Assembly (NCBI GenBank): GCA_963920765.1
Contig: OY987250.1
Span: 12,268,409 to 12,332,408 of the forward strand
Length of the DNA stretch: 64,000 bases
Direction of reading: 5' to 3'
Source: Ulota crispa
Taxonomy: Eukaryota; Streptophyta; Bryopsida; Orthotrichales; Orthotrichaceae
The position numbers and the translations under genes were made by a program. Of this stretch, positions 5,451 through 61,135 are shown piece by piece. The first letter of the stretch is position 1. Each line of letters opens with the position of its first letter. Under the pieces are notes generated by a model. That model saw nothing but the letters and a program-made list of their open reading frames with translations, was not told the origin of the DNA and ran no database searches.

Positions 5451-7364
5451 TTAACCCCTAAAGGCCCAAGCCCTTTTTTTGTGACAGTCACCAAAAACTG
5501 CCACTTTTGGGGAAATGAGTAGAATGGTAGGAAAAAACTATTTTTTGGAAATCTAACCACAAGTTCTTGCCCTACACTATGGGAGGTATTTCTAGGGAAA
5601 AAAAATCAGCTCATTCTAGATGTAGAAGAGTGAGATATTGACATTTGAAATGAAAAAAAAAAAATTCCTTGTTGCCCAGAAATTTCAGAAGCCTTTGACA
5701 TCTCCTATGTTAACCCCTAAAGGACCAGGCCCTTTTCTTTGTGAAAAACACTAAAAATTGCCACTTTTGGTGGGATGAAAGGAATGGTAATTTTTATTTT
5801 TTATTTTTTTGAAATCTAACCGTAAGATCTTGCTCTAGACAATATGAGGTACTTGGGAAAAAATGAGCTTATTCCAAATGAAAAGGAGTGAGATATTTAC
5901 ATGTGAAGTGAAGAAAAAAGTTTATTTTTGTACTGCCTAAAAATTTCAGAAGCCATTGACCAATCCTATATCAAAAAATTTGCTCTACGGAAAGTTGAGG
6001 TTTTTTTTTCCATGTAAAAGACCAAGTTAGGAATGTGTGGGATAATATTCAAATCAATTGGAACTATACAACACATAGAAAAAAATTAGTAAGTAAAAAG
6101 AAGTAGAGAATGAGTCAAAACACTAAATTGTTAAGAATTTAATTATTAAAATGAAAAATGCAAATCCCAAAGGTTATAATGTTGTGATAAACAATCTACA
6201 TCCTAACTTTGGTTTTGTTTTTTTTCCAAAATAATGAAAATTGAGTAAAATAAAGGACTTCAAAGTTTATTTTAGAGTAGAAAACCTAGAACTGCCCGCA
6301 AACAAAAACTCCTCATAACTTTCATCTCATCTATCAAAATTGAATGATTCAAAGCTCCCCACATCTATGTAAGTCTAAAAAACCTATTTTAGATTTTTAT
6401 TTGAAAAAATTGAAAATTTTAAAGAAGTTTTTGGCTGCCCGGGGAGCACCATTTTCCAGATTTTCATGCATGACTTTTTCAATAAATGTCGGAATGAAGA
6501 AAAAATTACATTCCCATGTAGATCTTTGAATTCCTCACCTTCAATAAAAGTTTCAGAAAATCACACAAAGTGGTTTAGCCATAGGTACTAAGGTACATGC
6601 CCAAAATCCCATTTGTCCTCCAAAGGGACAATGGTCCTTTAGGGGTTAAAAATATTGCTCTATGCAAAGCTGAGGTTTTTTTTTTTCCCCCATGTAGAAG
6701 ACCAAGTTAGGTAAGTGCGGTAGAATTTTCAAATGAATTGGAGGTGTGAATCATACTTTGTAAAATCTTGCAATTCTTTAAGGGCATGAATTTGCAAATA
6801 CACTAGGCAAAATTGGAGGATATATGTAAAATTCAGAAATTTGAATTATTGTGGACCAAATGGTGAAAACCAAGGAATCTTAGTCCACTACAACTTGGAA
6901 AAAAATAGAGTCAAAAAACAAATACATAAACCACTCAATAAAGTAAAGCACCAAATTTTACAAAGGGCAAAAGGAATTGGGAGGTTTGAGAATTGGGAGT
7001 CCCATACTCCATACCTACCCGCAAACTAAAACTTCTCATAACTTTCATCTCATCAATTTGAATAGAATGGTTCAAATCTTCTCAAATATACACAAATCTT
7101 AAGAACCAATTTCAAATTTTTATCTTAAAAAATGCAATTTTTTATATTTTTTGGGCTGCCTAGTTCTCCCTTGTTTTTTAATTATTCATGCATAAATTCT
7201 TCAATAAATGTCGGAAGGAAGAAAAAATTAAATGCCCGCTTAGGTCTTTGAATTCCCTACCTTCAATAAATGTTTTAGTAAATCTCACAAAGTAGTTTAG
7301 CTGTAAGTACATGCCCAAAACCCCACTTGGCCCCCGACGGACCACTTGGGTCTTTAGGGGTTAA
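5451..7364. mobile_element. TTAA-flanked element, family A, copy 1 (outer)
   Basis: Begins TTAACCCCTAAAGGCCC and ends GGGTCTTTAGGGGTTAA. It contains a complete second family A element at 5710-6649. Without that insert it is about 975 bp, the usual family length. No transposase frame is present; the 61- and 62-residue frames inside are noncoding repeat. Confidence 0.85.
5710..6649. mobile_element. TTAA-flanked element, family A, copy 2 (nested)
   Basis: Begins TTAACCCCTAAAGGACC and ends GGTCCTTTAGGGGTTAA. It sits inside the outer family A copy at 'ctcctatg|TTAA|aaatattgctc'. The uninterrupted paralogue at about 44897 reads 'ctcctatattaaaaaaattgctc', which gives the empty site and shows that TTAA was duplicated. 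Its interior is close to the element at 58683-59618 in the opposite sense. Confidence 0.9.
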
Positions 7365-7707
7365 GCTTGATTTGGAGAGGCCTCTAAATTTTTTGGAAGT
7401 TAGCTAATATTTGATGTGATATATCTAGATCATGCAATGTCCAAACCAAAAATTTATTGCACTTTTAGAATGGAAATTTTCATGCTCTTCAAATCATATA
7501 ATTTTTGCATGATTAACTACTTGCTATTAATAGATCAAGATTGATGTAGCGGCCTTTATGCCGAGGTGGACTAAGGATGCTTTAAGGGGTAGTGCCACTA
7601 GTGAGTAGTCCCAACTCCCAAATATTAAACAACTTCTAGTACGGGGCAATCGGCAGATTAGCTAGCTAGCACAGCTAACGGATGTGACAAACACAACTCA
7701 CTTGCTT

Positions 7708-8038
7708 TAAGAGCAGCTCCACAGGTGACTCCAACATGCTCAAAGTAGATGAAACGTGCTCTGGGCCCTCTCAAAATCCTTTCTTGGCACTATGTCCTGT
7801 CGATTGTTGTGTCTAGCAAGGGCCCTTCAAGCCACTATTCATGCATTCATTGTTCACCTTAAGTTTAGTGAGCTTTATCTTCTATTTTCCTTGATAAGTG
7901 ATCAACTGCTTATTTATGGGATGTGTTGGAGTGAGAGGCCACCTTTTTGAAGAACATGGGTGGAGATACAGGGACTTGAGGGCCGGCCAAAATAGATGGA
8001 AAACTTTGAAAGAGTCCGGACAGGTGGAGATGCTCTAA
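7708..8038. mobile_element. MITE, family H, copy 1
   Basis: Inverted ends TTAAGAGCAGCTCCACAGG and CAGGTGGAGATGCTCTAA bound about 330 bp. A looser relative lies at 14617-14889. No coding content. Confidence 0.6.
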
Positions 8039-8604
8039 GCTCTGCAAGGTTGCAAAGCGCCATTGCAAAGCGCCAGTTACGGAGAGCAATTCAAAGATCA
8101 AAGCTGACCGAGTGGTAATGAAACAGCACAGTCACGCTTTAATGAGCCCCTGTAAACCACAACGCCAAGTCCAAAACTTAATGGCAACTTATACTGGTCA
8201 TTTTTTCCTCTGTGAATTATATTTCATATGAACTTTTATCCAATTTTAACCCCTTTGAACCACCATATACAGTTCAAATGTAGACATTCAGGATGTAGTA
8301 AACCATCTTGCCTTCATCAAAGTCCCGGCTCTAAAAGATGAGCTCTTCCATGTACAATTGTGGCATGTAAAAACTTGGTGATAACATATCAGACTACTCT
8401 GTTCATGTACAATTTTTGCATTTGTTACCATCTCCATACCCGTCCTGATTATCAGAACTTCGTACAGATAATACAAAGTTCGATTTTGGCGTCTCACCGA
8501 TTTGGCGCTTCGAAGCATGCCGGTGACATTTTGGAGGTTGTGAAAATCAGCGGCAATGGATAATAAATAAAGCACAACAAGTACCAGGTCAAGCAGCACC
8601 AACC
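8039..8604. other. Stretch downstream of the FRO pseudogene, no feature
   Basis: Unique-looking sequence. I looked here on the minus strand for the last FRO exon, which normally carries a conserved Cys-Gly-Pro near the C-terminus, and did not find it. Confidence 0.4.
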
Positions 8605-9941
8605 TTGGAATTGCGGCCTGGTGCCTTCGACAACAACGCAGTTGTCCAATAAATCACTCTCCACGTTTCCCTCGAGGTCCGTCACCCGCGCCATTTTTAC
8701 CGCCTGTCCGTCTCCAGCGGCATCGCTGTGTCCGTTCCAGGCAGCACAAGTGCGAGCAATCCAGAGTAAGATGACGGAGCCTCCGCAGATGACGATCCCC
8801 ACGAACAAGCTCACGAAATGCAACACCGATTCCTCGGCGATGGAGAACTTCTTCCCCTTTTTGAGCAGCTTGGGGGACGACACGTAGTTGTACAGCAGGG
8901 CGTGCATGAGCACGAACCCGATCGACGAATCCATGATGAGGGCCAGCATTCACAGATTCTGGTACTAGTTCACCGTGACATTCCGTTGCGGCGTCTCTCG
9001 CCCTTCTCGGGACTCAGCGGGAACGGCTTCGCTCCATAGTCCACCATGGCTGTTTCCGTGGGCGGCATCTCTCCTCCCAACGCTTCTCCGGTCACGTACG
9101 CTCGGATGCTGAGGTTCAAGCCGCCCGCTTTCGAGGTTCCATTGTACGAGTAGCCGGGGTAGATCTGTGCGGGTTTGATTGTCTTCAGCGTCTCCAGCTC
9201 CGACCTTCTCCTGACGCACCACACGAAGTGCACATTCGTGAGGAGCCCGTCTTGGAGTAGTTCGTAACGAGTCAGCAGGTCTTTGATTATGGCCAGGAAT
9301 GGTGTCACTCCCGCTCCACCCGCCACCAGCAGCAGATTCTTGTACCTGAACAAGAGGCTCATCATCACATGATCACTTGCTCGTATGCCCGAATTCGTCA
9401 AAATGGCGTATTACAGAGCTTCAAGACATTCTATCAAGCTTTAGAATCTAAGGCCGATTTTCAGTTTCAGTCGAGCAAGTTTCGGATTGAACTCTGCTCA
9501 TGCACAAATCCAAACAGTTCTGAATTTCGACATGTATTCTGAGATGGAAAAGGGCCGAAGGGATGGAAGCTAGGCGTATTTGCGGCTGTGGTGCGGACCT
9601 AAGGAAGTAGTTTGATTCGTGGCCAGAAGTACCTTCCGCATGGACATTGGTGACGGCGAGCGGGCAGCCGCTTGCCTTGGCAGACTGAGCGTTGATATTG
9701 TCGTGAAGGCGATGAGTCCAGTCGCCGAGGGGCTTCACGTAGACAGTCACCTCATTGGAATCGTGAAGCGTGCTAGACGCTGTGCTGAACGGATGCCACT
9801 GTATGTAGCCGTGAGATCCCAGGAATTAATGTTGAGGTGTATGAAACTGAGAGCGTTGTACTTCAATCCCGGTACGAGTGCCATCGGTGCCAGCAGCCAC
9901 CGCTTGAGAGTACATGACCGCCGCTTCAGACGATCGACCAA
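8605..9941 (-). pseudogene. FRO: Ferric-chelate reductase (FRO family) pseudogene, 3' part
   Basis: FRO proteins are plasma- or organelle-membrane flavocytochromes that move electrons from NADPH through FAD and haem to Fe(III) chelates. On the minus strand the FAD-binding motif Q-W-H-P-F-S is at about 9785-9803, followed by V-Y-V-K-P-L-G-D-W. An exon ends at 9599 (AG|GT, after G-H-E-S-N-Y-F-L). A 253-bp intron (9346-9598) follows, and the next exon begins Y-K-N-L-L-L-V-A-G-G-A-G-V-T-P-F, the NADPH-binding segment. Later come two hydrophobic spans typical of the FRO C-terminus (about 8715-8945). Lesions: a frameshift just before QWHPF (about 9797-9806), another near 8970-9010, and stops TAG at 8965-8967 and TGA at 8950-8952. 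The latter falls where the family often has Trp. The N-terminal haem-binding membrane domain and the last exon are missing. Codons are G+C-rich, unlike the surroundings. The alternative, a gene with tiny unusual introns, is less likely. Confidence 0.85.
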
Positions 9942-11075: not shown

Positions 11076-11776
11076 ACGCGATATTCATTAATTTGGGAAA
11101 AAATCGCAATTTTGGGACTTTTGGACTTTAGGTCTTTTAGAATTGAAGGAATTATCAAAAAGTTCAATGGAAATCACCAAAATATTCTCTCAAATACAAA
11201 ATTCAATATCCTCAAAATCCATTTTGGGAAAGAACACTATATTTGTTAATTTGGGAAAAATACTTTCCCAAAACAAAACATATTTTGGGTACTAAAGTTT
11301 GCATTTGTGAAAATCCTAATGATTTAAATTGAGAACGCCATATTCGTTAATTTGGGACTAAAAGCCCATTTTGGGACTAAGCTAGGTTTAAGGTAATCAC
11401 CTTAAACCGGGTTTTAGGTTTAAGCAGCGTTTTTTTTTGTACACATGCCCTCACCTAAGAGGAGGAATTTGTGAGGGACAAAATCTTAGTGGCTCAAACT
11501 GAATTTGATACCTTCAAATCTGGCATTTAAACGGTTTAAGGTAATTTTTTGGGTTGAAGATGAACTGCGATTTGGGAATTGCGTTTTCCCAATTTATTAA
11601 ATATGGAGTTTGAGATTTCTGATAATTCATCAAAAGATTTCATCATTGATGTAAGATCTTGAAGAAATCATCATAAAATTCAGTCTAAAAATCACCTAAA
11701 AAGAAAAAACCCTTTAAAATGAAAAACTCAGAAGTCCCACAAATGATTTTTTTTGCAAATTAACAAATATTGAATT
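11076..11776. mobile_element. Nested cluster of family E MITEs
   Basis: The outer element runs from 'gatattcattaatttggg' (about 11081) to 'aaattaacaaatattgaat' (about 11756). Its two halves match the left and right halves of the intact element at 52955-53209. Further family E ends lie inside, at about 11236 ('ctatatttgttaatttggg') and 11334. Confidence 0.7.
11334..11610. mobile_element. Family E MITE (inner copy)
   Basis: Inverted ends AACGCCATATTCGTTAATT and AATTTATTAAATATGGAGTT. The interior holds the family motif 'gaggaggaatttgtgaggg'. Confidence 0.75.
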
Positions 11777-12744: not shown

Positions 12745-13827
12745 TTAACCCCTGAGCGCCCACACTGAAATTGAGAAAATGAGGCGAAGGGATCATGCTA
12801 GAAAATATTGTGCGTTTCAAGTTAGGAACTTAGATCGGGGAGGATTCACCGTTAGAATAGAAAAAAGGGTGCTTGATGCACCCAATCAAAAATTTACAGT
12901 ACTTTTTACAGCACCATTTTAAAGATTATATTAGTTAAAGTATAGTTGACTATGTGGCAACCGGTCAACTTTGGGGGAGTCCATGGCTATGGATGCAAAA
13001 ATTCATGTCTTAGAGGCTTCTTTTGATGAAATTTAGGCAAGGGGTGCATTTTACAAGTATCTTGCTTGCTACCAAATTTGGTGATGTTTTGACATCCGCA
13101 AGGTGGTTTTTTAGAGGCCCAAAGTTGCAAGGCTCACACAGCATAGTGGACAATAGATAAAGTACAGGTAAGGCTTTGACCTCCACAAGGGACGGCTCCC
13201 AGTGGTACAGCTGCAAAACCCTTTTCCAGTCTAAGCCATGCATGCCAAAACACCTCTAAACCTCATGTTCAATAAAATGGGAGTTTTCCATTGAAATGAG
13301 AGGAAATGTAAAGGAAAGTCGACAAAAGGTTTTATGTCAATTTAACTTGATTTGAGCTGAATTGACATAGAACCTTTCAAGTTTTATCTAAAATTAGAAG
13401 GTTTTATTGCAATTTAGGTCGACTTGACCTAAATTGCAATAAAACCTTTCAAAACTAACCTAAAATTGAAACGTTTTATGTCTCCCTTGGTTATCTTGGG
13501 AGGTGCTCAATCTCCCATTTTATTAAATATGAGGTTTCTAACGGTATGGAACTGGCCATAGCTACTGGTCCCTATCCTTGCACCTAAACCCTAAACCGCA
13601 TGAAATGAAGTTCTAGCATACTATTGTCATACTTGACTTGCACAATCCATGCTTGTACAAGTGGTGAAATCTCCATCGCCTACAATGTGGTATAAGATTA
13701 GTAGCATACCCTAAACCCAAGTACAATTCTGGGACAGTACACCCATGATTTGGACTCCATTTCTTGCAAAGTCTAATCTTGGGAGGCCATAATCTAGCCT
13801 AAAGGGTGTGGGGCCCTCATGGGTTAA
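12745..13827. mobile_element. TTAA-flanked element, family J
   Basis: Begins TTAACCCCTGAGCGCCCACA and ends GTGTGGGGCCCTCATGGGTTAA (in two pieces: GTGTGGGGCC then CTCATGGGTTAA). Its ends resemble the short P elements at 60402-61135. It carries a nested inverted-repeat element at 13258-13537. Its right TTAA (13824-13827) is also the left TTAA of the next element. Confidence 0.75.
13258..13537. mobile_element. Family E-like fold-back inside element J
   Basis: Ends 'aaacctcatgttcaataaaa' and 'ttttattaaatatgaggttt'. The interior holds another palindrome around 13330-13450: 'ttgacatagaacctttcaa', and 'attgcaataaaacctttcaa' with its complement. Confidence 0.65.
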
Positions 13828-14467
13828 CCTCTAAATGCTTGAGGCACCAAATTTTGGTGTTGGCAATACTATGAAGTGCAATATTCCTAAATAAATTGTT
13901 ATTTTTAGTTTTTTATATTTTTGGACTTTTCTTTTTAAAGTCTAGGTTTAGGCTCAAAAAACTAATTTTGAAAATGACAAATTATGATTTTTCTATTCAA
14001 GATTTTGTGCAAGGGTCTTGACTTTCTGTGGTGTTGAGAGCTCTTGGAAATGAGCCTCAAATACACTAGATCTTGGAGAAAAATTTACACTATATAGATT
14101 TATTTTAAAAAATTGTAGAAGAGGTTTTGAAAAGTTGTAAAATGATTGGAGTTATGTATGTTATGTCCTTAAACTTGCATTTTTTTGGTGACCAAAATTT
14201 TAAATTCATCATATGAAAAGAGGATTGAAAGACTTCAAGTCAGTTTTTGTAGTTTTAACACCCTTGTGATCAAACATTATAATCTTTCAATCCATAATTG
14301 ATATTGTTGTGTTTTCTTCTCTTATGTGATCTTTAATATATCTAGTTTGAATTTGTATAGTTACAATTTAAAAAAATTTGATACAAATTGTTAAAATGTT
14401 GACTTATTGTTCAATTTAGAGCAAATTCCTAGAAGCTCAAAAAAGACCTCAGGCATTTAGGGGTTAA
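13824..14467. mobile_element. TTAA-flanked element, family C, copy 1
   Basis: Begins TTAACCTCTAAATGCTTGAGG (shown to 'TTGA' only in function) and ends CAGGCATTTAGGGGTTAA. 644 bp, an inverted copy of 18631-19271 and similar to 36770-37422. Confidence 0.85.
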
Positions 14468-15367: not shown

Positions 15368-15601
15368 TTAACCCCTAAATGTCCTAGCGTGCCGCTGCAA
15401 CCAGTACAATATGGGATATTTTTCTTGTATTTGGAATGGATCCACACCTCTACTACATTTAAGACCAACAAAGAAGTTGGAGAATAGATCAATGCGGTTC
15501 TAGTGAGCTACTTGAGATCCCAAATTAAAATTTCTTATTGGTAGTAAATGATAATTATACGTCAGCGTACATATGGTTCCCTATGGACATTTAAGGGTTA
15601 A
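15368..15601. mobile_element. Short TTAA-flanked element, family K
   Basis: Begins TTAACCCCTAAATGTCC and ends GGACATTTAAGGGTTAA. 234 bp. Its right TTAA is shared with the next element. Confidence 0.8.
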
Positions 15602-16545
15602 CCCATAAAGTTCTTTGACTATGTTTCACTAAAAAAACACATTGAATGAGTTTATTTGGATTTTTGATAGCAAAGGAATAAAAAAATGTGAAGGGAAATC
15701 TTGACAAAATTTATCATAGGATCTGGTAGTAGATTATTTCATTAAACTATGTTAAAAAGATGAAAGTGATATATTTGCCGCATAGATTGTGAGATTATGA
15801 GGTTTGAAATGAGAAATAGTTTACTTTTGGGGCATTCAAATTCTGGGCAGCTCTAATTTGGGGAGGCTTTTGCACCATCTAATTTCACTATTTTTCTTTT
15901 AGTTTTTTATGCTAATGCTTGCAATAGAGCTGGCCATATGTCCAAAGAAATTCATACCATTTTGAATTGAAGAACACATACTAAAAATTTAGAATAGGAA
16001 ACTAGCTCCAAGAAAATTCTTATACAAAGTTGTTGTTTTCAACAATTTTTGGCTTTCATATACAATAATGTATTCAAAATGTGAACTCTGGAGCTATAAA
16101 TCTTGGTTAGCTTCATGGAAGGAAAAAGAAAAGGAAATCAGTCAAAAATTGTGACTTTGTTAAGCTTAATCAACATAGGGCCACATGATCCACATCCACC
16201 TAAGGTGAAGTAAAGGGCATTAAGTGAAAAGATTTGCTTTCATAAAATGAGATTGGGTTAAGGTCTACAAGGAAATAGCTTTGCACCTTAGCCTTTGGGC
16301 AAGGTCCCAAAATTTCAACTCTAGAGTAAATAAAAGTCCCTGTCTTGCCCTACAAGCATAAATACAATTTCCATCATAGCTATTCTAACAAATTGAAATG
16401 GTTTGAAAATAATTGCATTGGAAAGATGCTTCTTAAGCACAAATACTCTAAATTTTTGTGTGAAAATACATTCATTTTTTATAAGTACTAGCTTGCCCAA
16501 AATCACTATGTTCCCAAATATGTTGTACAATCCTTTAGGGGTTAA
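15598..16545. mobile_element. TTAA-flanked element, family L
   Basis: Begins TTAACCCATAAAGTTC and ends ATCCTTTAGGGGTTAA. 948 bp, the size of family A, but with an interior I could not align to the other families by eye. No transposase frame. Confidence 0.75.
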
Positions 16546-16793: not shown

Positions 16794-17682
16794 TTAATCC
16801 CTAAATGCGTAGCTGTCCCCTTGAGGGACAAATGGATTTTGAGCATGTACCTATAGCAAAACCAGTTTGTGTAATTTTTTGAAACTTTTATTGAAGGTGG
16901 GGATATCCAAAACCTATGCAGGCATTTAATTTTTTCTTCATTTTGACATTTGATGAATAAGTTATCAAGAAGTTTCTAAAATGAGGCAATAAGGGGTAGT
17001 TTGGGCAGGGCCTCTCCTTTGTAAGTGGGTGTTGACTTCAAAGAGGATCAGCCCTTGTGGACACTTGGACAAATGGGAGTGGAGTGGAAGGTGCACATCT
17101 TGGGGGACTCCCAAACCTCCATTCCTTTTGCCCCTTGTAAAATTTGGTGCTTTACTTTCTTGAGCCGTTTATGTATGTATTTGTTTTTTGATTGATTTTT
17201 TTTCCAAGTTGTAGTAGGCTAAGAACTTTTTGTTTTCACCATTTTGATCAATGTGATTTGAATTTTTGAATTATACATAAGTTCTCCAATTTTTCCTAGT
17301 GTATACTTGCAAATTTTATGACCTTTTGGCATTGTAGGATTTTATAAAATATGCTTCACACCTCCAATTCATTTGAAAATTCTCTATCACATACCTAACT
17401 TGGTCTTCTACATGGAAAAAACAAATCTCAACTTTGCATTGAGCAATTACTTTGATATAGGAGCGGTCAAATTTGTTTTTTTTCACTTTAGATATCAGAA
17501 TCTCACTCATATACATCTAGAATGAGCTGAATTTTTTTCCACAAATATCTTCCATAGTCTAGGGCAAGATCATACACTTGGATTTCAAAAAAAAAAGCAC
17601 TTACTTTTCTACTCATTCCCCCAAAAAGAGGCGGTATTTAGTGACTTTCACATAAAAAAGGGTTTGGACGTTTAGGAGTTAA
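16794..17682. mobile_element. TTAA-flanked element, family A, copy 3
   Basis: Begins TTAATCCCTAAATGCG and ends GGACGTTTAGGAGTTAA. The interior is typical of family A, in the reverse sense to 5451-7364 ('gagcatgtacctatagcaaa', 'gcactttagtctt'-type blocks, 'cttctacatggaaaa'). Confidence 0.85.
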
Positions 17683-18630: not shown

Positions 18631-19271
18631 TTAACCCTAAATACCTGAGGCCTTTTCTGGGCTTTTAGGATTTTGTTTCAAATTGAACAAAAAGGTAACA
18701 TTTTTATAAATTGTATCAAGTTCTTTTGAATTATAACTGTACAAATTCAAACTAGATATGTTAGAGGTCACACAAGAAAAGAAAACACAACAATATCACT
18801 AATAGACTGAAAGATTATAATGTTTGATCATGAGGGTGTTAAAACTACAATAATAACTTGAAGCCTTTGAAACCTCTTTTCACATGTTGGATCTAGAAAA
18901 TTGACCATCAAAAAAATATAAGGTTAAAGGAAATAACATACATAACCCCAATCACTTTATAGCTTTTCAAAATTTTTTCTACAATTTTTTCAAATGAATT
19001 TTTTATGTAAATTTTTCTCCAAGATCTAATGTATTTGAGGCTCATTTCCAAGAGCTCTCAACACTAGAGAAAGTCAAGACCCTTGCACAAAAGCTTGAAT
19101 AGAAATCTTGTAATTGATCATTTTCAAAATCAAAATTTTGATCCTAAAATTAGACTTCACAAAGAATAAATCCAAAATGTAAACTACTAAAAATAGTAAC
19201 TTAGTTAGGTTTATTGAACTTCAGAGTATTGCAAACACCAAAATTTGGTGCCGTAGGCATTTAGGGGTTAA
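18631..19271. mobile_element. TTAA-flanked element, family C, copy 2
   Basis: Begins TTAACCCTAAATACCTGAGG and ends GTAGGCATTTAGGGGTTAA. 641 bp. Shares 'gattataatgtttgatcatg' with 36770-37422. Confidence 0.85.
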
Positions 19272-19734: not shown

Positions 19735-19983
19735 TGTGATATATTTGTTAATTTGGGAAAAACATGGGTCCCACTTTGTTTTCCCCTCAAACCTAAAAAG
19801 TTACTTTAAACGAGATTCAAAGGTATTAGATTCAATCTGAGCCACTAAGATTTTTTCCCTCGCAAATCCCTCCTCTCAAGTGAGGGCACGTGTCGGTTTG
19901 AGGTGATCACCTCAAATTTCCTAACTCACTTCCTGAAAGTCCCAAAATGTACCATTTTTCCCAAATTAACAAATATCGAGTTT
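19735..19983. mobile_element. Family E MITE
   Basis: Ends 'gatatatttgttaatttggg' and 'cccaaattaacaaatatcga'. About 250 bp. Confidence 0.75.
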
Positions 19984-20124: not shown

Positions 20125-20395
20125 AACGCCATATTTGTTAAATTGGGAAAAACAGAGGTACCATTTTGTGTTCCACCTCAATCCAAAATACTCACCTCAA
20201 ACCAAATTCAAAAGTATCAGATTCAGTCTGAGCCACTAAAAAAATTTCCCTCACAAATTCCTCCTCTCAAGTGAGGACATGTGTACCCAAAAAAAATGTT
20301 GGAGCTTGATTTTTGGGCCTGCTTTGGGATGATCACCCCAAACCTTCAAAAATCCCAAAATGACCGTTTTGGCCCAATTCAACAAATATGGCAAT
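20125..20395. mobile_element. Family E MITE
   Basis: Ends AACGCCATATTTGTTAAATT and CCCAATTCAACAAATATGGC. Contains 'cacaaattcctcctctcaag'. Confidence 0.8.
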
Positions 20396-20585: not shown

Positions 20586-20933
20586 AAATTGTTTAGATAC
20601 TATGAATTCACAAGATTTACCATGTGAATTTAGCTAATTTGTCATCCTACAATTATGTTTTTGTTGCCACGGCCTTTAAAAGTTAATAATTGCAGTAATT
20701 ATTGCTGATAACTCCTGTAGTAGAAGTAGGTAGTTAAATAATGTGAAACGTCAAAAAATTAGTACGGAACAACCGAAATGCACTATTTGGTGTAATGAAA
20801 TTGTTTCACCGGGTTGGCCAGTGTGGGGAGCATGTGGTGAGGGTTGTGCTGGGTGTGTCCGCTGCTAGTCAAACTAGTTCCAAAGTTTAAGGTAGCAGCA
20901 CCCATAAGCCTGAGTTTAAGGGTTATATGGTAT
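20586..20933. other. Spacer with a family G fragment
   Basis: Only a family G end fragment at about 20889-20912 ('aaggtagcagcacccataag') is recognisable. Confidence 0.4.
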
Positions 20934-21517
20934 ATGGGATCTTCAAATCTCCATTCCTTTTGTCCTTTGTAAAATTTGGTTTGTATTTTATTTCACTTTT
21001 TTTTTTCATGTTGTAGTAGATTGAGATTTCTTGGTCTTTCCATTTGAATTAAAGTAATTTGGACTTCTAAATTATACATAAATCCTCTAATTTTGCCTAA
21101 TGTATACATGTGCACATTTCATGGCCTTAAGGCATTGCAAGATTCTACAAAGTTTGATTCACACCTCCAATTCATTTGAAAAATCTCCCATACTTACCTA
21201 GCTTGGACTTCTACATGGAAAATTAAACCTTAACTTTGCGTAGAGCAATTTTTTTGATATAAGAGAGGTCAAAGGCTTTTGAAATTTTTGGACAAGGAAA
21301 TAAACTTTGTTTTGCACTTCCAATGTCAATATCTTACTCCTCTACATCTAAAATGAGCTTATTTTTTTCCCCACAAGTACCTCCCATAGTCTAAGGCAGG
21401 ATCCTACGGTTGGATTTTCCAAAAAATACAAATTTTCTACCTTTCTATTCATTGCTTTAGAAGTAGCAGTTTTCAATGACTTATGCAAAAAAAAGGGCTT
21501 AATCCTTTAGGGGTTAA
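20934..21517. mobile_element. Family A element, copy 4 (left-truncated)
   Basis: The right end ATCCTTTAGGGGTTAA is intact. The sequence matches family A only from about the 'ctccattccttttg' block onward, so about 300 bp including the left terminus are missing. Confidence 0.7.
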
Positions 21518-21980: not shown

Positions 21981-22887
21981 AAGGACCATTGTCAGTTTGG
22001 GTGACATTTGTGATTTTGGGCATGTACCTATGGCTAAACGACTTTGTGTAATTTTTTGAAACTTTTATTGACGGTGAGGATTTCATAGATCTACGCGGGA
22101 ATGTAATTTTTTCTTCATTCCAACATTTATTGAAAAAGTCATGCATGAAAATCTGGAAAATGCTGCTCCTTGGGTAGCCAAAAACTTCTTTAAAATTCTA
22201 TTTTTTTCAAATAAAAACTTGAAATAGGTTCTTTAGAAGGGAGCTTTGAATCATTCAATTCTAATAGATAAGATGAAAGTTATGAGGAGTTTTTGTTTAC
22301 GGGCAATTCTAGATTCTCTACTCTGAAATAAACTTTGAAGTCCTTTATTTTACTTAATTTTTATTATTTTGGAAAAAAAAAAACAAAATCAAAGGATGTA
22401 GATTGTTTATCACAACATTATAACCTTTGGGATTTGCATTTTTCATTTTAATAATTAAACTCTCAACAATTTAGTGTTTTGACTCATTCTCTACTTCTTT
22501 TTACTTACTATATTTTCCCATGTGTTGTATAGTTCCAATTGATTTGAAAATTCTCCCACACATACCTAACTTGGTGAACTACATGGGAAAAATAAAGCAC
22601 AACTTTGTGTAGAGTAACTTTTTTGCTCTAAGAGTGGCCAAAGCCTTCTGAAATTTCTAGGCAGCAGCAAAAAAACTTTTTTTTGCAATTTAGATGTAAA
22701 TACCTCATTCATTTTTGTGTAGATTGAGCTGATTTTTTTACCATGTGTACCTCTTGTAGTCTACTATAAGATCTTACGATTGAATTCTTGTTAATTTTTT
22801 TTTTTCTTACCATTGTATTTGCTTCTCCAAAAGTGGCAGTTTTCTGTGTTTTTCGCAGAAAAAATGGCTTGGTCCTTTAGGGGTTAA
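21978..22887. mobile_element. Family A element, copy 5
   Basis: The left end is eroded (TTGAAGGACCATTG instead of TTAACCCCTAAAGGACC). The right end, GGTCCTTTAGGGGTTAA, is intact. A 210-codon minus-strand frame crosses into it from the neighbouring tandem repeat and is not a gene. Confidence 0.75.
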
Positions 22888-23901: not shown

Positions 23902-25122
23902 TTAACCCCTAAAAGACCAAGGGTGTTTTTTGAGAAAAAATCTCAGAAACTATCAACTTTTAGTGTTTTGCTGAAAATTGAAATTAAAAACATTTTTTCT
24001 CAATTCCAACCGTACAAAAGTGTGTCAAATAGATAAGTTAATGTGTGCAAAAAATTTCAGCTTATTTGACCGCACGGATTATAAGTTTATAATTTTTGAA
24101 GTGAGAAAGAAACGCGTTATTTGTTAAATTGGGAAAAACGTTACATTTTGGGACTTCTGAAAGTTTTAGGTGACCACCTGAAAATCAAGCTCACAGTGCT
24201 TTTTTTGGTACACGTGCCCTCACTTGAGAGGAGGAATTTGAGAGGGAAAAAATCTTAGTGGCTCAAACTAAATTTGATACCTTTGAATTTGGTTTAAGGT
24301 GACTTTTTGGGTTAAGGTGGAGTACAAAATGGTATCTCTATTTTTCCCAGTTTAACAAATAACGCATTAAAATAGCTTTTTTTTATTCCTGCAAAATAAG
24401 GTCAGCAGACTTTGAGCCTTCCCAAAGTAAAATTTTTGCTCTACACAAATTTGAGCTTTTTGACCATTCACAAGTATATGATGTTAGGTTCACTCATGTA
24501 AAATAACAAATGCAAAGATAGAATCTAGCTTATTCTAAATCATTGTGCAGTGCAAGGAGGTTTAGTGAATTGGCAATACATTAGACATTCTTTCATGATT
24601 TCTTGTGCAATGAGAAAGTCTTTTATTTGAAATTTGAATAGTGAATAGTTAGAGACAATCATTTGGAATATGTGAAAAAAAGTTTCAAGAGTTTGGATAT
24701 ATAGATTGAAAGATAATAGAGCTTGAAGTTAGAGGAATTCTTTTCTTCTTGAAACTGCCCAAACATAGTTAACAAAATTTGACTCCCTTTAGAATGTGAT
24801 GTGAGACTTGAATTTTTTTTTTTTGACAATTGTACACCATGTCTTTTTAATTACATACTTGCCAAATTTCAAAAGTTGATGAGAGTTTTAGCATAAGATT
24901 CTCCAAAGATGCCCATGCTACCCAAATTGCCCAAATTATTTTGGGTAACATAATTTTTGAACCGGGCATCTGATTGGGGAAAAAATTACATCTCCACTTA
25001 TGGGATATATATTTACACCTTGTGTAACAATTTTGAGAACATCCAATAAAAATTAACTTCGTATGACCCAACCTGAGTTCCCAAGTGACTGTTGAACAGC
25101 CACATGATCCTTTAAGGGTTAA
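23902..25122. mobile_element. TTAA-flanked element, family D
   Basis: Begins TTAACCCCTAAAAGACC and ends GATCCTTTAAGGGTTAA. 1221 bp including a nested family E MITE (24111-24368). The host is therefore about 960 bp, like family A. No transposase frame. Confidence 0.8.
24111..24368. mobile_element. Family E MITE nested in element D
   Basis: Ends AACGCGTTATTTGTTAAATT and AGTTTAACAAATAACGCATT. Typical interior ('gagaggaggaatttgagagg'). Confidence 0.8.
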
Positions 25123-27976: not shown

Positions 27977-28269
27977 GTTCATTTCCCAAGAGACAAGAGA
28001 ACCCACCATATGTTTTCTGTACATTCACTTATTGAGAAATACATCTCTTTGCAACTCCCTAACCTCCATAACAGTATTAAGCAAGTCAAAATGTCTCTAA
28101 TTCTACAATTATACTCTGATCAACAACAGATGGAGATCAGTTAACAACAGTTAACATTTAACAACGAAGTATACTGTTATTTTTGTCAACTGACATGGGT
28201 TAATAATGTTCTATCTATTCACAGAAATATACTGGTCTCGTGGCCTTGTTGGTATGAACAATTGAACAC

Positions 28270-28527
28270 AACACCATATTTGATAAATTGGGAAAAACAG
28301 AGATACCATTTTGTACTCCATCTTAAACCCAAAAAGTTACCTTAAATCAGATTTGAAGGTAACAGATTTAGTCTGAGTCACTAAGATTTTTTCCCTCGCA
28401 AATTCTTCCTCTTAGGTGAGGGCAAGTGTACCAAAAAAAATGCTGCAAGCTTGGTTTTAGGTGATCACTTAAAACCTTCAAAAGTCCCGAAATATATTGT
28501 TTTTCCCAATTTAACGAATATGGTGTT
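28270..28527. mobile_element. Family E MITE
   Basis: Ends AACACCATATTTGATAAATT and CAATTTAACGAATATGGTGTT (shared core 'gaatatggtgtt'). About 258 bp. Confidence 0.8.
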
Positions 28528-28632
28528 ACACCCTCAACCTGGCATGAAAGCAATACAATCAAAAGATGAACACTAAACAACATCTGATTGTGAAAGAAGA
28601 AACCCTTGCTAGGATTGATAAGGATAAGGTGG

Positions 28633-41347: not shown

Positions 41348-41704
41348 CTATGCAGTCACATATATCAATATCGTGAAGCCTAAAAATTCAAATACTATTT
41401 CCGTAAGAACAACCAATGGAAGATCATTTCTTTCCAATCTGTCGTCTTCATCTTCGTTATAATTGTGATGAACTTCCATACCTCTTCTTGTGTTTTCCAG
41501 TGAATGGCGACATACTGGACAAGTTGCCCTTCTATGTTGAGTTTGTATCCATCTTGTAATACATGGCTCGCAAAACAAGTGCTTGCATTCAGTGATATGC
41601 ATAGGTGTTGCATTGTCCAAGCATATGTTACACTTCTTTTTGTCACCTAAAATATCCATTGATTGCTTGAGACTTGATTGAATTGGATTCTTCAGATGAG
41701 CCAA
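41348..41704 (-). pseudogene. Small RING-finger gene, copy 2 (start codon lost)
   Basis: The RING ligands are all present: C-x2-C, then C-K-H-L-F-C-x2-C, then C-x2-C, the full C3HC4 set with the His that copy 1 lacks. The codon aligned with the start of copy 1 (41702-41704) is TTG, not ATG. The frame stays open upstream to an ATG at 41974, but that part aligns with noncoding flank of the sister copies, so I do not believe it is coding. Translation from the internal ATG at 41657-41659 (M-D-I-L) would still include the whole RING in about 103 residues. Whether it is a gene or pseudogene is therefore open. The acidic, charged C-terminal half (E-D-E-D-D-R) resembles the other copies. Confidence 0.6.
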
Positions 41705-42637
41705 TCTTTTAAAGAGAGAGCTTGGTGAAACAAAGTATTGTTCTAAAATAAATGATAAATGAACACAATATATATAGTAATGACTTTGTTTTATAGTCCA
41801 AAGTAAAAGACAAAATTTTACATTAAATTTAGAAAAAATTAAAAGTAAAATAAAAGAAAACACCAAAAAGCATGATCCATTTAGAAGATATTTGGGGCCA
41901 AAAAAGGCTCCGAGTTCCAAGGCTGCAAGGAACTTGAGAACTTTGACACACAAGCAGTCTGACGTGGGCAACATTGTTTAACATCAAATAACATTAAATA
42001 ATTAAATTTGTATTTTTTTAAATTCTTTGATATTTTGTTTTTTGAATAAATGTTTTATAACATTTTAATATCTTTCAAATAACTTTTTAATAACTTCTTT
42101 TTTTTAATGATTTTAATTTTAAAATATTTTTTTTATTTCATTTACTGATTTTACTAGCAATGGATGGTTCACAACCTGGGTAACAGTCCCACTTGCAGCT
42201 CCTTTTTTTTCTTTAAATCTCTACTAATGCAACTTATTATTTTGAATAAAAGATGGAATATCCACAATTAATGTTCAATGCACTTAGCCACTTACTCATA
42301 TTTCGATCTCAGTGTTTACCTAGAATGCAAGTTATGCAAGTTATGGTAATATGTGGTGATTATTTAGAATGACATTATTATCGAATTGTTGAGATTGTTT
42401 TAAACTCCTTTTTATTTAAGCAAATATACTTTTTATGTTTGGAGTAGAAGAGTTTGATCATTGTATATGTCACACATTGTTAAACAACATTGTGAATATA
42501 AAAAATGGAAACTACGGGAACAATCATTTTTTTACCAACAATCCTTAGTCCTAACATCTTACTCTTTCATTTATTGGCTTATGTTATTGAATAAAAAACC
42601 TTACTTTACTACACAAAACCAATCAAATTCCAATAAG

Positions 42638-43990: not shown

Positions 43991-44045
43991 GCGAATCCTG
44001 TATTGGGTTGTGTTTTGCAAAACTGAAGGACAAATCAATGTGCCT

Positions 44046-44432
44046 TGAGTTATTTTGTTTCTCTTGCTATTGAGTTTTTTTGTTTCTCTTGCTATTGAGT
44101 TTTTTTGTTTCTCTTGCTATTGAGTTCTTTTGTTTCTCTTGCTATTGAGTTTTTTTGTTTCTCTTGCTATTGAGTTTTTTTGTTTCTCTTGCTATTGAGT
44201 TTTTTTGTTTCTCTTGCTATTGAGTTTTTTGTTTCTCTTGCTATTGAGTTCTTTTGTTTCTCTTGCTATTGAGTTCTTTTGTTTCTCTTGCTATTGAGTT
44301 TTTTTGTTTCTCTTGCTATTGAGTTTTTTTGTTTCTCTTGCTATTGAGTTTTTTTGTTTCTCTTGCTATTGAGTTTTTTTGTTTCTCTTGCTATTGAGTT
44401 TTTTTGTTTCTCTTGCTATTGAACTATTTTGT
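44046..44432. repeat. 25-bp minisatellite, about 15 units
   Basis: Unit 'tttgtttctcttgctattga' plus 'gtttt', almost perfectly repeated, with one unit shortened by a T. Units are contiguous without spacers, so this is not a CRISPR array. Confidence 0.95.
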
Positions 44433-44637: not shown

Positions 44638-45584
44638 TTAACCCCTAAAGGCTCAAGCCTTTTTTTTCTGTGAAAGTTACTGAAAATTGCCACTTTTTGG
44701 AGAATGAATAGAAAGGTAGGAAAAAAAAATTATTTTGGAAATCTAACCATAGGATCTTGCCCTAAATTATGGGAAGTACTTGTGTAATAAAAATCAGCTC
44801 ATTCAAGATGTACATGAGTGAGATTTTGACACCTAAAGTGAAAAACAAAGCTTTTTTCATGTTGCCCAAAAATTTCAAAAGCCTTTGACAGCTCCTATAT
44901 TAAAAAAATTGCTCTACCCAATGTTGAGGTTTTTTTTCCCCATGTAGAAAACCAAGTTAGGTAAGTATGGGAAAATTTTCAAATGAATTGGAGTAGTGAA
45001 TCATACTTTGTAAAATCTTGCAATGCTATATGGTTATGAAATTTGCATATACACTAGGCAAAATTGGAGGATTTATGTAAATTTTAGAAATTTGAATTAG
45101 TATGATCCAAATGGTAAAAACCAAGGAATCTTACTCTACTACAATTTGGAATAAAATAAAATAAAATAAAATACCCAAATCACTCAAAAAAATAAAGCAC
45201 CAAATTTTACAAGGGGCAAAAAGAATGGAGGTTTGGGAGTCCCATACCTACCCGCAAACTAAAACTTCTCATAACTTTCATCTTAGCAATCAAAATTGAA
45301 TAATTCAAAGCTTCCCACATATATAAATCTAAAGAACTAATTTCAGATTATTATTATTTTTTAATTATTTTTTTGGTTGCCCAGTTCTCCCTCATTTTTC
45401 AGAAATTCATGCATAATTTCTTCAATAAATGTCAAAATGAAGAAAAAATAGATGCCCACGCCAATTTTTGAATTCTCCATCTTCCATAAAAGTTTCAGAA
45501 AATCACATAAAGTACTTTAGCTATAAGTACATGCCCAAAACCCCACTTGGCCTTGGAGGGACCACTTGGGCCTTTAGGAATTAA
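44638..45584. mobile_element. TTAA-flanked element, family A, copy 6
   Basis: Begins TTAACCCCTAAAGGCTC and ends GGGCCTTTAGGAATTAA. 947 bp. It supplies the empty-site version of the TTAA that is occupied in the outer element at 5451-7364. Confidence 0.9.
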
Positions 45585-48411: not shown

Positions 48412-49322
48412 TTAACCCTTTAGACCAAACCATATTTTGGTTGAGCAGAGTGGTTTTTGGCCTATAGAGTAAAATTGTACAACAATTTGGAAATTGTTCT
48501 TAAAGAACAATTGTGATCACAAGAATTTTTGCATCCAATCAAAAAAACAACAATGAAATTGGGTATATGAGTTGATATATAATGGTATTTATATGGCATG
48601 GCCTCCAGATATGTATCCATATTTGGTCAAAGATGAATCAAAGCAACAACACAATACATTAAACATCCAAAAAGAATGCCACATTTCAATTGCGCAATCT
48701 TAAAATGTTTCAAATTGCTTAAAAAATATGCTTGTATTGTTTCTCTATACAATGGTAGTATGATTATAGTATTTGAAGATCTATTGAAATTGTGCTATCA
48801 TTTCATCCTAAAAATTTGGCATCCTACATTTAAGGCCAATCCTTGATTTTTTTCACCAATCAAATTTTTCATAGTATTTATCAAATTTCTCGTAGAACCA
48901 TTTGAGGGTAGCAATTAAAGTGGGGTTTTTGACCCTTTTTGTCCACTTAGCTACACCTTGTGATTGCTATTTTTATCCATTTTGTGTGAAACTAGTCTTA
49001 TTGGAAAGGTGGGAAACCTTGCTTTCTAGAAGTATAAGGTTCTTCTCAAGCAAAGCTTGCATGAAGCAGTAAGATCCAAAACCACACAAGCATGAAAAAC
49101 TAGAGATTTTCTACCTACATCTCACTTAATTGTTATAATATTTCACCTCAAACGGTAAATCTAGTTGAGATTTTGATAGTTTACAGTGAATAAGGTGTTC
49201 TTCCCACTTATACGGTTGGATTACGCAAATTGGGTCCACATTTGATTCAACTACACATTTAAGCTTACTGCCCCAATTTCTAGTGGATTTTGTGAAAATG
49301 TGGGTGGTCTTTAAAGGGTTAA
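48412..49322. mobile_element. TTAA-flanked element, family N
   Basis: Begins TTAACCCTTTAGACCAAACC and ends GGTGGTCTTTAAAGGGTTAA. 911 bp. The interior differs from family A by eye. Confidence 0.75.
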
Positions 49323-53212: not shown

Positions 53213-53596
53213 TTAACCCCTAAATCCTTGAGTGTCCCCTTGGAGGACAAATGGAATAACAGGCAGGTATCTACAATCTCAATTTTTGTCTTGATCTTTT
53301 GAAACTTTTTTTGAAGATAGGAAAATACATTAGCTTTTGGGGAATATAAATTTTATTCCAATCAAATGCAAGGTGCAAAAAAATATGTTTTTTACACTTT
53401 GAATGCAAATATCTTGCAATCTGTGTGATCAAAGTTTTTGAATTTTGGTTTCCGCATTCTTATACAAGTCTAATACAAGATCTTATGGTTAGATATGCAA
53501 AAAGACCAATTTTCAAATGTTTTTACTCTTTGAAATAGAAATGGCAATTCTAAGTGTCTTTTGACAAAATAAAGGCCACAGGGATTTAGGGGTTAA
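53213..53596. mobile_element. Short TTAA-flanked element, family O (deleted family A)
   Basis: Begins TTAACCCCTAAATCCTTG and ends GGGATTTAGGGGTTAA. 384 bp. The subterminal sequence recalls family A ('ggacaaatgg', 'ttttgaaacttt'). Confidence 0.8.
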
Positions 53597-53883: not shown

Positions 53884-54814
53884 TTAACTGAACCCCTAAG
53901 GCCCAAGCCCCTTTTTTTTCCAGTGAAAGTCACTGCTAAATGTCACTTTGGGGGAATGAGTAGAAAAGTAGGAAATAAGGTTTGTTTTGCAAATCCAACC
54001 ATAGGATTTTGAATTAGACTAGAAGAGGTATTTTTGGGAAAAAATTAGGTCATTCAAGATAGAGAGAAGGGAGATATTTACATATGAGGTGAAGGAAAAT
54101 GGTTTTTTTCCTCACTGCTAGTAAATTTCAGAAGCCTTTAACCACTCTTACATGAAAAAATTACTCTACACAAAGTTGAGGTTTATTTTTTCCATGTAGA
54201 AGACCAAGTTAGGTATGTGTGGGAGAATTTTCAAATCAATTGGAACTATACAACACATGGGGAAAAATAGTAAGTATAAAGAAGTAGAGAATGAGTCAAA
54301 TCACTAAATTGTTAAGAATTTAATTATTGAAGAGAAAAATGCAAATCCCAACGGCTATAATGTTGCGATAAACAATCTACTTCCTTAGGTTTAGTTTTCT
54401 TTCCAAAATAATGAAAATTGTGGAAAATAAAGGACTTCAAAGTTTATTTTAGAGTAGAGAATCCATAATTGCTCACAAACTAAAACATCTCATAACTTTC
54501 ATCTCATCGATTGAAGTTGAATGATTCAAAGCTTCCCACACATGAAAAAATCTAAAGAACCAATTTTAAATTTCTATTTTTAGAAAATATATCTTTTTTA
54601 AGAAAATTTTGGGTTGCCCGGATTCTCCTCCCTCCCTCACGCAGCAGAAATTCTTGCATAACTTCTTCGTCAAATGTCAAAATGACAAAAAAATTAAATA
54701 CTTGCGTAGGTTTTGGAATTCCCCACCTTCAGAATAAGTTAAAAAAAATATTGATTATAGGTACATGCCCGAAATCCATTTGTCCCCAGGGACAGCTAGG
54801 CCTTTAGGGGTTAA
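53884..54814. mobile_element. TTAA-flanked element, family A, copy 7
   Basis: Begins TTAACTGAACCCCTAAGGCC (slightly rearranged) and ends GGCCTTTAGGGGTTAA. The duplicate block at 42411-42430 has the uninterrupted site 'tttatttaagcaaatatac', so the insertion at TTAA can be read directly. Confidence 0.9.
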
Positions 54815-55068: not shown

Positions 55069-55077
<9 letters not shown>

Positions 55078-55328: not shown

Positions 55329-56229
55329 TTAACCCTTTAGTGCCGCTTGCTTTCCAAGCTGGTAGTTTTTTTGGAAAAACAAATTTTTTTAGCCTTTTTA
55401 GTAGTTAAGTCGGATGGACAAAGCACAATCCAACTGTACGAACGTAAACTACTATCTTGGAAGATAAGCATGTAAAGTTTTTGGACCCATATGCTTATGA
55501 TATGTACTGCATCAATGAAGTGAAAGGTGGTGCATTATATTAAGTTTGGATTGTACATGTTGTATGAATGGCTCCTACGAGCAACTATTGTAAAATTAGA
55601 TTTTGAAATTGTACATTTTTCTTACATATGATATGTTGAAGGGCTTGAACTTGGGATTTTGGGAAAAAGTTGTACAATTTGCTATATTTGATGAAGGAAA
55701 ATTAGGGTGCAAAATTGTGGAAACGATCATGAAATTTTGATCATTTTTAGAAATGAGATTTGCATGGTTAGTAAATCCAACTGGAGAAGTTATTTGAATA
55801 GTATTGATCTACAGTTGTGTACTTTTTCAAAAGAAGTGACAATATATAAGTGACTTTGATTGTGCAATGCTAAAAGGATTGAAGAGCTTGGGTAAGGGGT
55901 ACAAAGCCAAAGAATAATTGGGTTGGCTGCTATCACGGCACTATTTTACCTAGTTCCTAAAGACGGCAAGTGACGTCATCCTCTTGATGGTGTTTTGGTG
56001 AGTGATTTGTACTAAACACTCAAGTTTCCCAATACCCCTTTTGATAAATCACTCTCTCTACAACATGCTGTAATTCCAAACTTTGATCAAACAAGTACGC
56101 TTGAAAATATACTTCATTCCCTACATGTGTGTAATTGGTCACTCCATGATCTGAAATTGGTAACACACCCTAAAATTCACTTCAAAAGTGTGAAAACAGT
56201 TTTTGCCTCTTGCAGCCCTAAGGGGTTAA
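55329..56229. mobile_element. TTAA-flanked element, family F
   Basis: Begins TTAACCCTTTAGTGCCGC and ends GCAGCCCTAAGGGGTTAA. 901 bp. The interior was not matched to other families. Confidence 0.75.
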
Positions 56230-57465: not shown

Positions 57466-57471
<6 letters not shown>

Positions 57472-57519
<48 letters not shown>

Positions 57520-57520
57520 A
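57472..57520. repeat. (TA)n/(TGTA)n microsatellite
   Basis: TA run, then 'tgtatgtatgtatata'. Matches the position of the (TA)n at 42640 in the duplicate block. Confidence 0.9.
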
Positions 57521-58682: not shown

Positions 58683-59618
58683 TTAACCCCTAAAGGACCA
58701 TTGTCCCTTTGGGAGACAATTGGGATTTTGAGCATGTACCTATGGCTAAACTACTTTGCATGACTTTTTGAAACTTTCACTAAAGGTGAGGAATTCAAAG
58801 ATCTATGTGGGCATGTAATTTTTTCTTCATTCTGACATTTATTGAAGAAATTATGCATGAAAATCGAGAAAATGTTGCTCCTTGGGCAACCAAAAAATTC
58901 TTTAAAAATTCCATTTTTTTCAAATAAAAATTTGAAATAGGTTCTTTAGACTTATATAGATGTGGGGAGCTTTGAATCATTCAATTATGATAGATGAGAT
59001 GAAAGTTATGAGGAATTTTTGTTTGCGGGCAGTTCTAGATTTTCTACTCTAAAAATAAACTTTGAAGTCCTTTATTTTACTCAATTTTCATTATTTTGGA
59101 AAAAAAACAAAACCAAAGTTAGGATGTAGATTGTTTATCACAACATTATAACCTTTGGGATTTGCATTTTTCATTTTAATAATTAAATTCTTAACAATTT
59201 AGTGTTTTGACTCATTCTCTACTTCTTTTTACTTACTAATTTTTTTCTATGTGTTGTATAGTTCCAATTGATTTGAATATTATCCCACACATTCCTAACT
59301 TGGTCTTTTACATGGAAAAAAAAAACCTCAACTTTCCGTAGAGCAAATTTTTTGATATAGGATTGGTCAATGGCTTCTGAAATTTTTGGGCAGTACAAAA
59401 ATAAACTTTTTTCTTCACTTCACATGTAAATATCTCACTCCTTTTCATTTGGAATAAGCTCATTTTTTTTCCCAAGTACCTCATATTGTTTAGAGCAAGT
59501 TCTTACGGTTAAATTTAAAAAAAAAACAAAAATAAATTACCATTCCTTTCATTCCCTTGAAAGTGCCAGTTTTTAGTGTTTTTCACAGAGAGAAAAGGCC
59601 TCATCCTTTAGGGGTTAA
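58683..59618. mobile_element. TTAA-flanked element, family A, copy 8
   Basis: Begins TTAACCCCTAAAGGACC and ends CATCCTTTAGGGGTTAA, with terminal repeats matching over 15 bases. 936 bp. Closely similar to 5710-6649 in the opposite sense, so these two are among the younger copies. Confidence 0.9.
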
Positions 59619-60326: not shown

Positions 60327-60401
60327 ATTCCCTTTTAATCCTTTTACAACCACGCAACTAGCAGATGGTTGATAGCAGTGTATTTCACATACATCTAGTT
60401 G

Positions 60402-60648
60402 TTAACCTTGAGCGCCCAAGGGGCCAAAATATGGCCTCTTGATTTTGAAAAATTTCCTTATTTGACCATTATAATCTTTTCAATGCTACGGTGAAAGGAC
60501 ATGTCCTTTTCCTTGGAGCTCTGGGCCTATGTTCACTACCAATCAGTACGGTCAATATTTATGAATTTCTTTTAGGTGATAGTTTGATTGGAATGAGTTC
60601 CAAAGGGTTTGGATTTGAGTGAACTTGTGCTGGGCACTCAGGAATTAA
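60402..60648. mobile_element. Short TTAA-flanked element P1
   Basis: Begins TTAACCTTGAGCGCCC and ends GGGCACTCAGGAATTAA. 247 bp. Confidence 0.8.
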
Positions 60649-60887
60649 TCCTTGAGCACCCTAGAGACTGTCTCTAGAGATTAGAAAACATGATCCTAGG
60701 TCTTGCTAGTACGATGTCCTCAAATTGAGATAGGGTGGTACAAGGGTGGTAGGGAGTGTAGGTATTGGGGTTCCTAATGATCATGATTGGTCTCACACAA
60801 GTTACCTCAATTTTGTAAAAACCACCAGCTTGTGAGTGTGAGTAGGTTTGCCTAAACTGGATTTTGAATTGGGCGCTCAAGGATTAA
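60645..60887. mobile_element. Short TTAA-flanked element P2
   Basis: Begins TTAATCCTTGAGCACCC and ends GGGCGCTCAAGGATTAA. 243 bp. Shares its left TTAA with P1. Confidence 0.8.
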
Positions 60888-60891
60888 AGAG

Positions 60892-61135
60892 TTAACCCCT
60901 GAGTGCCCAATTCATATTCATCAAAATGCAAACCTAGTCACACTCAATCCAACTAATCTATCATGACAAACGAGATTCATAAAATCCAACCATATTGATT
61001 GATAGGGGACATAGGTCCATAAGTACTTGAAAAAAGGACACATGATTTGATTTTATTAATGAAAAGACTATAACAGTCGATACTTCTTCAATTGTGAGAA
61101 GCAATATTTGGGGATGTGGGGCGCTCAGGGGTTAA
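60892..61135. mobile_element. Short TTAA-flanked element P3
   Basis: Begins TTAACCCCTGAGTGCCC and ends GGGGCGCTCAGGGGTTAA. 244 bp. Four bases from P2. Its ends match element J at 12745-13827. Confidence 0.85.

Follow-up and report, generated by a model that had tools for sequence, protein, structure and literature searches.

Short TTAA-flanked repeats in the moss Ulota crispa as probable non-autonomous members of the piggyBac superfamily

A 64-kb stretch of the moss Ulota crispa (C9:12268409-12332408, 36% G+C; hereafter the window) is crowded with short repeats that begin TTAACCC and end GGGTTAA. Ends of this kind recall piggyBac, a major tool of genome engineering whose superfamily is usually associated with animals. 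The locus raises the question of what these repeats are in a plant, and of what has moved them. Having searched the whole 274.8-Mb assembly (157 contigs), we conclude with high confidence that they are non-autonomous members of the piggyBac superfamily in the moss nuclear genome, resembling miniature inverted-repeat transposable elements (MITEs) and most likely moved in trans by the transposases of elements of 5–6 kb.

The window contains 18 copies of TTAACCC and 23 of GGGTTAA, against a mean of 5.6 for each (maxima 12 and 10) in 50 first-order Markov simulations of the window. A longer consensus, TTAACCCYTNANNGNCC, is common to many of these ends in both orientations and has 13 exact matches in the window. 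Complete elements were recognised under a strict rule: both ends carry TTAA, no fewer than 10 of the 13 specified end positions match, the two ends agree at 12 or more of 17 positions, and the length is 150–1,400 bp. This yields 14 elements in the window and 34 distinct elements (232–1,221 bp, 12–17 of 17 end positions alike) in the 307 kb compared. The 34 elements of this library form 16 homology groups, nine of which are singletons; six of the nine come from the window. Weakly matched window elements have few or no matches elsewhere, and their limits rest mainly on their ends. Homology to the library also detects further degenerate or truncated copies, and covers 15,067 bp (23.5%) of the window once an unrelated nested repeat of about 250 bp is masked; the unmasked figure of 16,504 bp (25.8%) is inflated by that repeat, which lies inside the element at 23902-25122. 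The reversed window gave no matches to the library. The repeats that the initial annotation described are thus real. Its estimate of about 24 elements is plausible when degenerate copies found by homology are admitted, but 14 are complete by the strict rule; its 16.5 kb, or a quarter of the window, agrees with the unmasked figure but shrinks to the masked one without the nested repeat. The elements and fragments are as follows.

5451..7364, older copy of the family of about 940 bp, with ends TTAACCCCTAAAGGCCC / TTAACCCCTAAAGACCC, split by another copy of that family
5710..6649, complete 940-bp MITE nested in the preceding copy, 17/17 end positions alike
12745..13827, element with ends TTAACCCCTGAGCGCCC / TTAACCCATGAGGGCCC, 15/17 end positions alike; 11 match rows elsewhere, the six displayed being interior
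13824..14467, member of a family of about 650 bp with AAATGC-type ends; its left TTAA doubles as the right TTAA of 12745-13827
15368..15601, 234-bp MITE with a full-length relative at L025:7780-8013 (81%)
15598..16545, possible 948-bp element, weakly paired (13/17), with a single 91-nt match elsewhere
16794..16986, fragment of the 940-bp family with one end, by homology
17104..17682, fragment of the 940-bp family with the other end (TTAACTCCTAAACGTCC), by homology
18631..19271, degenerate member of a family of about 640 bp, 84% identical to 13824-14467
20933..21517, truncated member of the 940-bp family, by homology
21981..22887, member of the 940-bp family with an intact right end but no TTAA on the left, 83% identical to 5710-6649
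23902..25122, member of a family of about 955 bp with the unrelated nested repeat of about 250 bp at 24109-24368; uninterrupted relatives in L030, L032 and L044
36770..37422, MITE of 653 bp with CACCRCCC-type ends, one of which matches transposase element L009 over 30 nt (87%)
44638..45584, member of the 940-bp family holding a TTAA that matches the site occupied in the 5451-7364 copy
48412..49322, 911-bp MITE with TTTA..GACC-type ends, 12/17 alike, 82% identical to L014:497-1409
53213..53596, 384-bp MITE, 16/17 end positions alike; parts match a 926-bp family (L040)
53891..54814, member of the 940-bp family with an intact right end and a degraded TTAA on the left
55329..56229, 901-bp element, 14/17, with a single 181-nt match elsewhere (68%)
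58683..59618, copy of 936 bp belonging to the 940-bp family, 93% identical to 5710-6649
60645..60887, 243-bp MITE with TTAATCCTTGAGCRCCC ends, 16/17 alike
60892..61135, 244-bp MITE with GAGYGCCC-type ends, 16/17 alike, whose only match in the sequence compared is its neighbour 60645-60887 (68%), itself without any other match there

The nested repeat at 24109-24368 belongs to a second family of about 250 bp, with ends like AACGCCATATTTGTTAAATTGGGAA rather than TTAACCC. It recurs at five more places in the window (11334-11562, 19741-19982, 20125-20391, 28267-28530 and 28633-28844).

The window itself contains no transposase detectable by tblastn with 19 sampled transposase domains, as the initial annotation had observed, but the genome is well supplied. 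A search with the PF13843 (DDE_Tnp_1_7) profile gave at least 120 matches over the cut-off, distributed over each of the contigs C1–C11, with a best E-value of 1.3e-73, and two open frames scored 4.1e-67 and 8e-60 against the same profile in hmmscan. Among solved structures the transposase of locus L019, one of these two frames, is closest to piggyBat of the bat Myotis lucifugus (PDB 9c0f, 2.6e-24) and also matches Trichoplusia ni piggyBac (PDB 6x67, 7.6e-20); its motifs VDE, TDN and GVDxxDQ pair with those of piggyBat in the displayed alignment. Across the 19 sampled domains the first, second and third catalytic aspartates are kept in 17, 13 and 17 copies, and all three together in 12. Pairwise identities among the 19 range from 29 to 81% (median 35%). 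A C-terminal tail rich in Cys and His was seen by eye in one copy, L012. The second catalytic aspartate is replaced by N in five of the 19 copies and by E in L017 (loci L010, L015, L016, L020, L021 and L017); taken with the abundance of TGA and TAG stops, this pattern would be in keeping with decay through cytosine deamination.

What connects these genes with the window repeats is their ends. Twenty transposase loci (the 15 best matches and five picked) were read with about 4 kb on each side. In seven of them a matched pair of TTAACCC-type ends encloses the gene, with 13–17 of 17 end positions alike and lengths of 5,025–6,010 bp (L009, 5,027; L010, 6,010; L012, 5,746; L013, 5,586; L014, 5,102; L016, 5,288; L021, 5,025); the weakest pairs accepted were those of L016 (14/17) and L021 (13/17), and pairs seen at L011, L023, L025 and L026 were not accepted. 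Ends of the form CCCYT are typical, with single deviants such as the right end of L021, TTAATACT. Of the elements in the library, nine of 34 have ends that match those of L009, L010 or L012 over 23–42 nt. In the window, for example, the left end of 13824-14467 matches L012 over 37 nt (84%) and the right end of 60892-61135 matches L010 over 38 nt (84%); TTTA..GACC ends also link L013 with 48412-49322, by eye. Ends are all that the sampled repeats share with the larger piggyBac elements of the same genome: between the nine elements and L009, L010 and L012 there were no interior matches at E ≤ 1e-3. There is accordingly no support for the view that the MITEs arose by deletion from the transposase elements sampled. 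Short and present in many copies, with no transposase match in the window and with ends shared in those nine cases, the library elements fit the definition of MITEs. The piggyBac assignment proposed in the initial annotation is thus upheld by PF13843 transposases lying inside full-length elements with like ends. Downstream of the transposase core, the elements of L012 and L016 also hold palindromes, of about 405 bp in L012 (83% self-complementary) and about 509 bp in L016 (91%), which are perhaps nested elements.

The target site is clearest for a transposase-bearing element. A 177-nt query made of the L013 flanks around a single TTAA matched the occupied place at positions 1–95 and 92–177, which overlap by exactly TTAA. 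Of 40 places reported, 38 cross the junction unoccupied, at 72–79% identity and on ten contigs; 13 of these relatives were read, and 12 have a single TTAA and one CCAA. The L013 site and its unoccupied relatives therefore demonstrate TTAA target duplication, in agreement with the initial annotation. The transposase element of L021 likewise has an unoccupied relative, within the same locus. Unoccupied sites of the MITEs also support TTAA duplication, more thinly. The equivalent place to the 5710-6649 insertion, at 44860-44959 of the window, has a single TTAA. For 5451-7364, the outer flanks joined together find an empty place in L046 (72% identity), with TTAG at the site. With L030/L031, these are the spanning matches that were counted. 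Those for 1024-1389 (25 gaps) and 60645-60887 (which matches its neighbour) were discounted.

The ends are abundant in the genome as a whole. A genome-wide count gives 31,318 occurrences of the degenerate end TTAACCCYTNANNGNCC and 9 of its reversed pattern; for the exact 17-mer TTAACCCCTAAAGGACC the counts are 8,154 and 0. When copies of the 940-bp family were sought, 40 of 9,821 first-look candidates were scored, and 31 of these 40 best places aligned over positions 1–940, the query included and the remainder at 83–93% identity. The window is nevertheless locally rich, with 203 exact ends per Mb compared with 114 in the genome, so that its quarter must not be extended to the genome. For each exact end, the library covers 1.16 kb of the window, 0.38 kb of the transposase loci and 0.49 kb of loci chosen for an end, the sets partly overlapping. 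Multiplied by the 31,318 ends, these values extrapolate roughly to 12–36 Mb of elements, or 4–13% of the assembly, an estimate that rests on three non-random sets and on a library that leaves out the 5–6-kb elements.

A mechanism can be proposed from what is known of piggyBac biochemistry, in which TTAA is targeted and excision is precise (in the account given in PMC8086355). The 5–6-kb elements encode, or once encoded, DDE_Tnp_1_7 transposases. Each transposase would bind the ends of its own sub-type in trans, on long and short elements alike; cutting at the ends would then lead to precise excision and to insertion at a TTAA. Several lineages of transposase, each with a preference for its own sub-type of end, would have driven the amplification over a long time.

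Several observations weigh against this picture. Only 10 of the 120 match rows in the PF13843 search are free of stops, and at least one catalytic aspartate is absent from seven of the 19 sampled copies; because stop-free copies are few and aspartates have been lost, current activity appears doubtful. In 13 of the 20 transposase loci no convincing end pair was found. The commonest end type counted, AAAGGACC, is without a clearly paired transposase element among the 20 loci: four elements of this type match the right end of L012 over 29–30 nt, and L025 is a candidate partner only. When 147 end pairs were tested for unoccupied sites in the sequence compared, seven gave a spanning match, two of which are the same element (L030/L031). 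The unoccupied MITE sites are, moreover, diverged, that of L030/L031 reading ACCA in L039 and that of 5451-7364 reading TTAG in L046, while the six rows displayed for the 5710-6649 site (two of them one place) comprise one TTAA, two TCAA and others that differ. On the other side, TTAA stands at 39 of 39 correctly cut ends in 20 genomic copies of the 940-bp family, whose outer flanks look unrelated, but this count is favoured by the picking of copies aligned over 1–940.

Could another superfamily that targets TA-rich sites, such as PIF/Harbinger, have made the repeats, the piggyBac transposases being unrelated neighbours? End motifs by themselves can mislead, and the MITE interiors have nothing in common with the sampled transposase elements. 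Yet the transposase sits inside elements that have like ends and TTAA duplication, and three end sub-types are shared over 23–42 nt, which largely contradicts such an origin for the sampled sub-types and leaves it very improbable. Contamination, that is, misassembled piggyBac genes from moss-dwelling animals, comes to mind since piggyBac is commonest in animals, but we give it next to no weight. PF13843 matches lie on each of the contigs C1–C11, and the L013 element interrupts a repeat whose 38 unoccupied relatives are spread over ten contigs. C2, a contig of 37 Mb and one of those with PF13843 matches, also bears an open copy of PsaF, a second copy with one stop being on C1. The open copy matches the solved structures 8htu (440 bits), 9lut (389), 6l35 (319), 7ksq (317), 2wsc (262), 5l8r (253) and 4xk8 (237), of which we take 8htu and 7ksq to be from the moss Physcomitrella patens. 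The same moss is the source of 6l35, and pea that of 5l8r and 4xk8, according to the passage in PMC7884438. A moss among the best solved relatives, for a gene on so large a contig, bears out the plant host named in the initial annotation.

The idea that piggyBac invaded recently, by horizontal transfer from an animal or a fungus, in place of long residence, deserves more thought, since reports of piggyBac in plants are few in the literature searched; even so we regard it as unlikely. The 19 transposases differ deeply from one another, the other scored copies of the 940-bp family are 83–93% like the window copy and most of the transposase genes are decayed. An older arrival may have involved one transfer or several. 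Piecing the evidence together, we continue to favour piggyBac MITEs moved in trans by long-resident 5–6-kb elements.

The transposase loci show a further feature. Roughly 1.5–2.4 kb upstream of the core, on the same strand, at least 10 of the 20 loci hold a conserved region some 70 residues long (tblastn E ≤ 1e-3; L009, L010, L014, L015, L017, L018, L019, L021, L025 and L026), some copies containing stops. In L014 it reads '...VVNCLQEDFLLSLP...WGYLCRRQIAKLLGW'. Six stop-free copies align, five of them 28–37% identical to the first, and the two scanned frames that hold the region (L014 and L019) gave no Pfam match; a frame scanned in L026 is a different one from that of the region. The region may be a gene or protein of its own, or else an N-terminal exon lying far from the rest of the transposase, and may help in end binding. 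We would tentatively extend this to a wider scenario, to which we give somewhat less than an even chance: that the moss carries an old, plant-resident piggyBac radiation with an enlarged plan of 5–6 kb, in which the upstream region serves as an end-binding helper and several MITE lineages, each specific to an end type, have been amplified to perhaps 4–13% of the genome.

The window has other features too. Part of a ferric-reductase-like gene (PF08030) lies at 8970-9401 (minus strand), adjoining a frame at 8494-8949 (minus) without a Pfam match. The frames at 41348-41974 (minus), which contains a RING finger, and 591-1031 (plus) are alike by eye. At about 31407-34292 (minus) there are frames that resemble, by eye, pieces of a Copia retrotransposon, of which 32419-32793 has no Pfam match. 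A tandem array at 44045-44422 consists of 15 copies, at 98%, of a 25-bp unit.

Among known systems, the nearest parallel described is that of the coral CMITEs and AmiPB piggyBac-like elements, as far as the relevant part of PMC2872659 sets it out. Both systems have TTAA duplication, an unoccupied allele or site, MITEs whose ends recur in a piggyBac-like element (in the coral, CMITE family I and AmiPB1) and the CC[C/T]T end motif (AmiPB1 CCCTTTCCCGTCC); short terminal inverted repeats (TIRs) starting CC[C/T]T, a criterion in that paper, are found in the moss elements. The coral system differs in its animal host and in the one element length given in that part, 3,668 bp (PMC2872659), against a plant, elements of 5–6 kb and more than 30,000 recognisable ends here. 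The moss elements, at that length and with their conserved upstream region, are also unlike T. ni piggyBac. The latter has CCC ends, is about 2.5 kb long and contains one gene. It shares with the moss elements the PF13843 core (PDB 6x67/6x68) and, in the text of PMC8086355, the TTAA target. PiggyBat, the best solved relative of the L019 transposase, is described there as having simple 15-bp TIRs, and is one bat family, unlike the many divergent lineages of the moss. The plant MITE groups Tourist and Stowaway resemble the moss repeats in being short, of high copy number, bounded by TIRs and moved in trans. Stowaway has a TA target duplication and another transposase. Tourist, too, depends on a different transposase, and its target duplication is given as TAA/TTA in a passage of PMC10004981.

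The initial annotation called piggyBac unusual in land plants. This is fair, although 'unknown in plants' would be wrong: passages of reviews name piggyBac elements or MITEs for plants (PMC8086355, PMC10813416, PMC10004981, PMC10794571). Because of these, its presence in plants is not itself new. For Ceratopteris, PiggyBac is entered at 0.00% in the part of the source available, and the 'piggybac' matches in the available text of the Niphotrichum paper are to 'piggybacking'. No report of piggyBac as a major class in a moss was among the literature matches listed, and the survey by Bouallegue et al. may list plants. The superfamily being known, the surprise is its scale and diversity of lineages in a plant, together with the conserved upstream region.

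With more than 30,000 recognisable piggyBac-type ends and its many divergent transposases, the genome would be evidence that this superfamily is able to grow into a large class of repeats in a land plant. Repeat annotation in mosses may file such elements as unknown. They offer natural piggyBac elements of a plant, and a test case for the joint evolution of end sub-types and transposase lineages.

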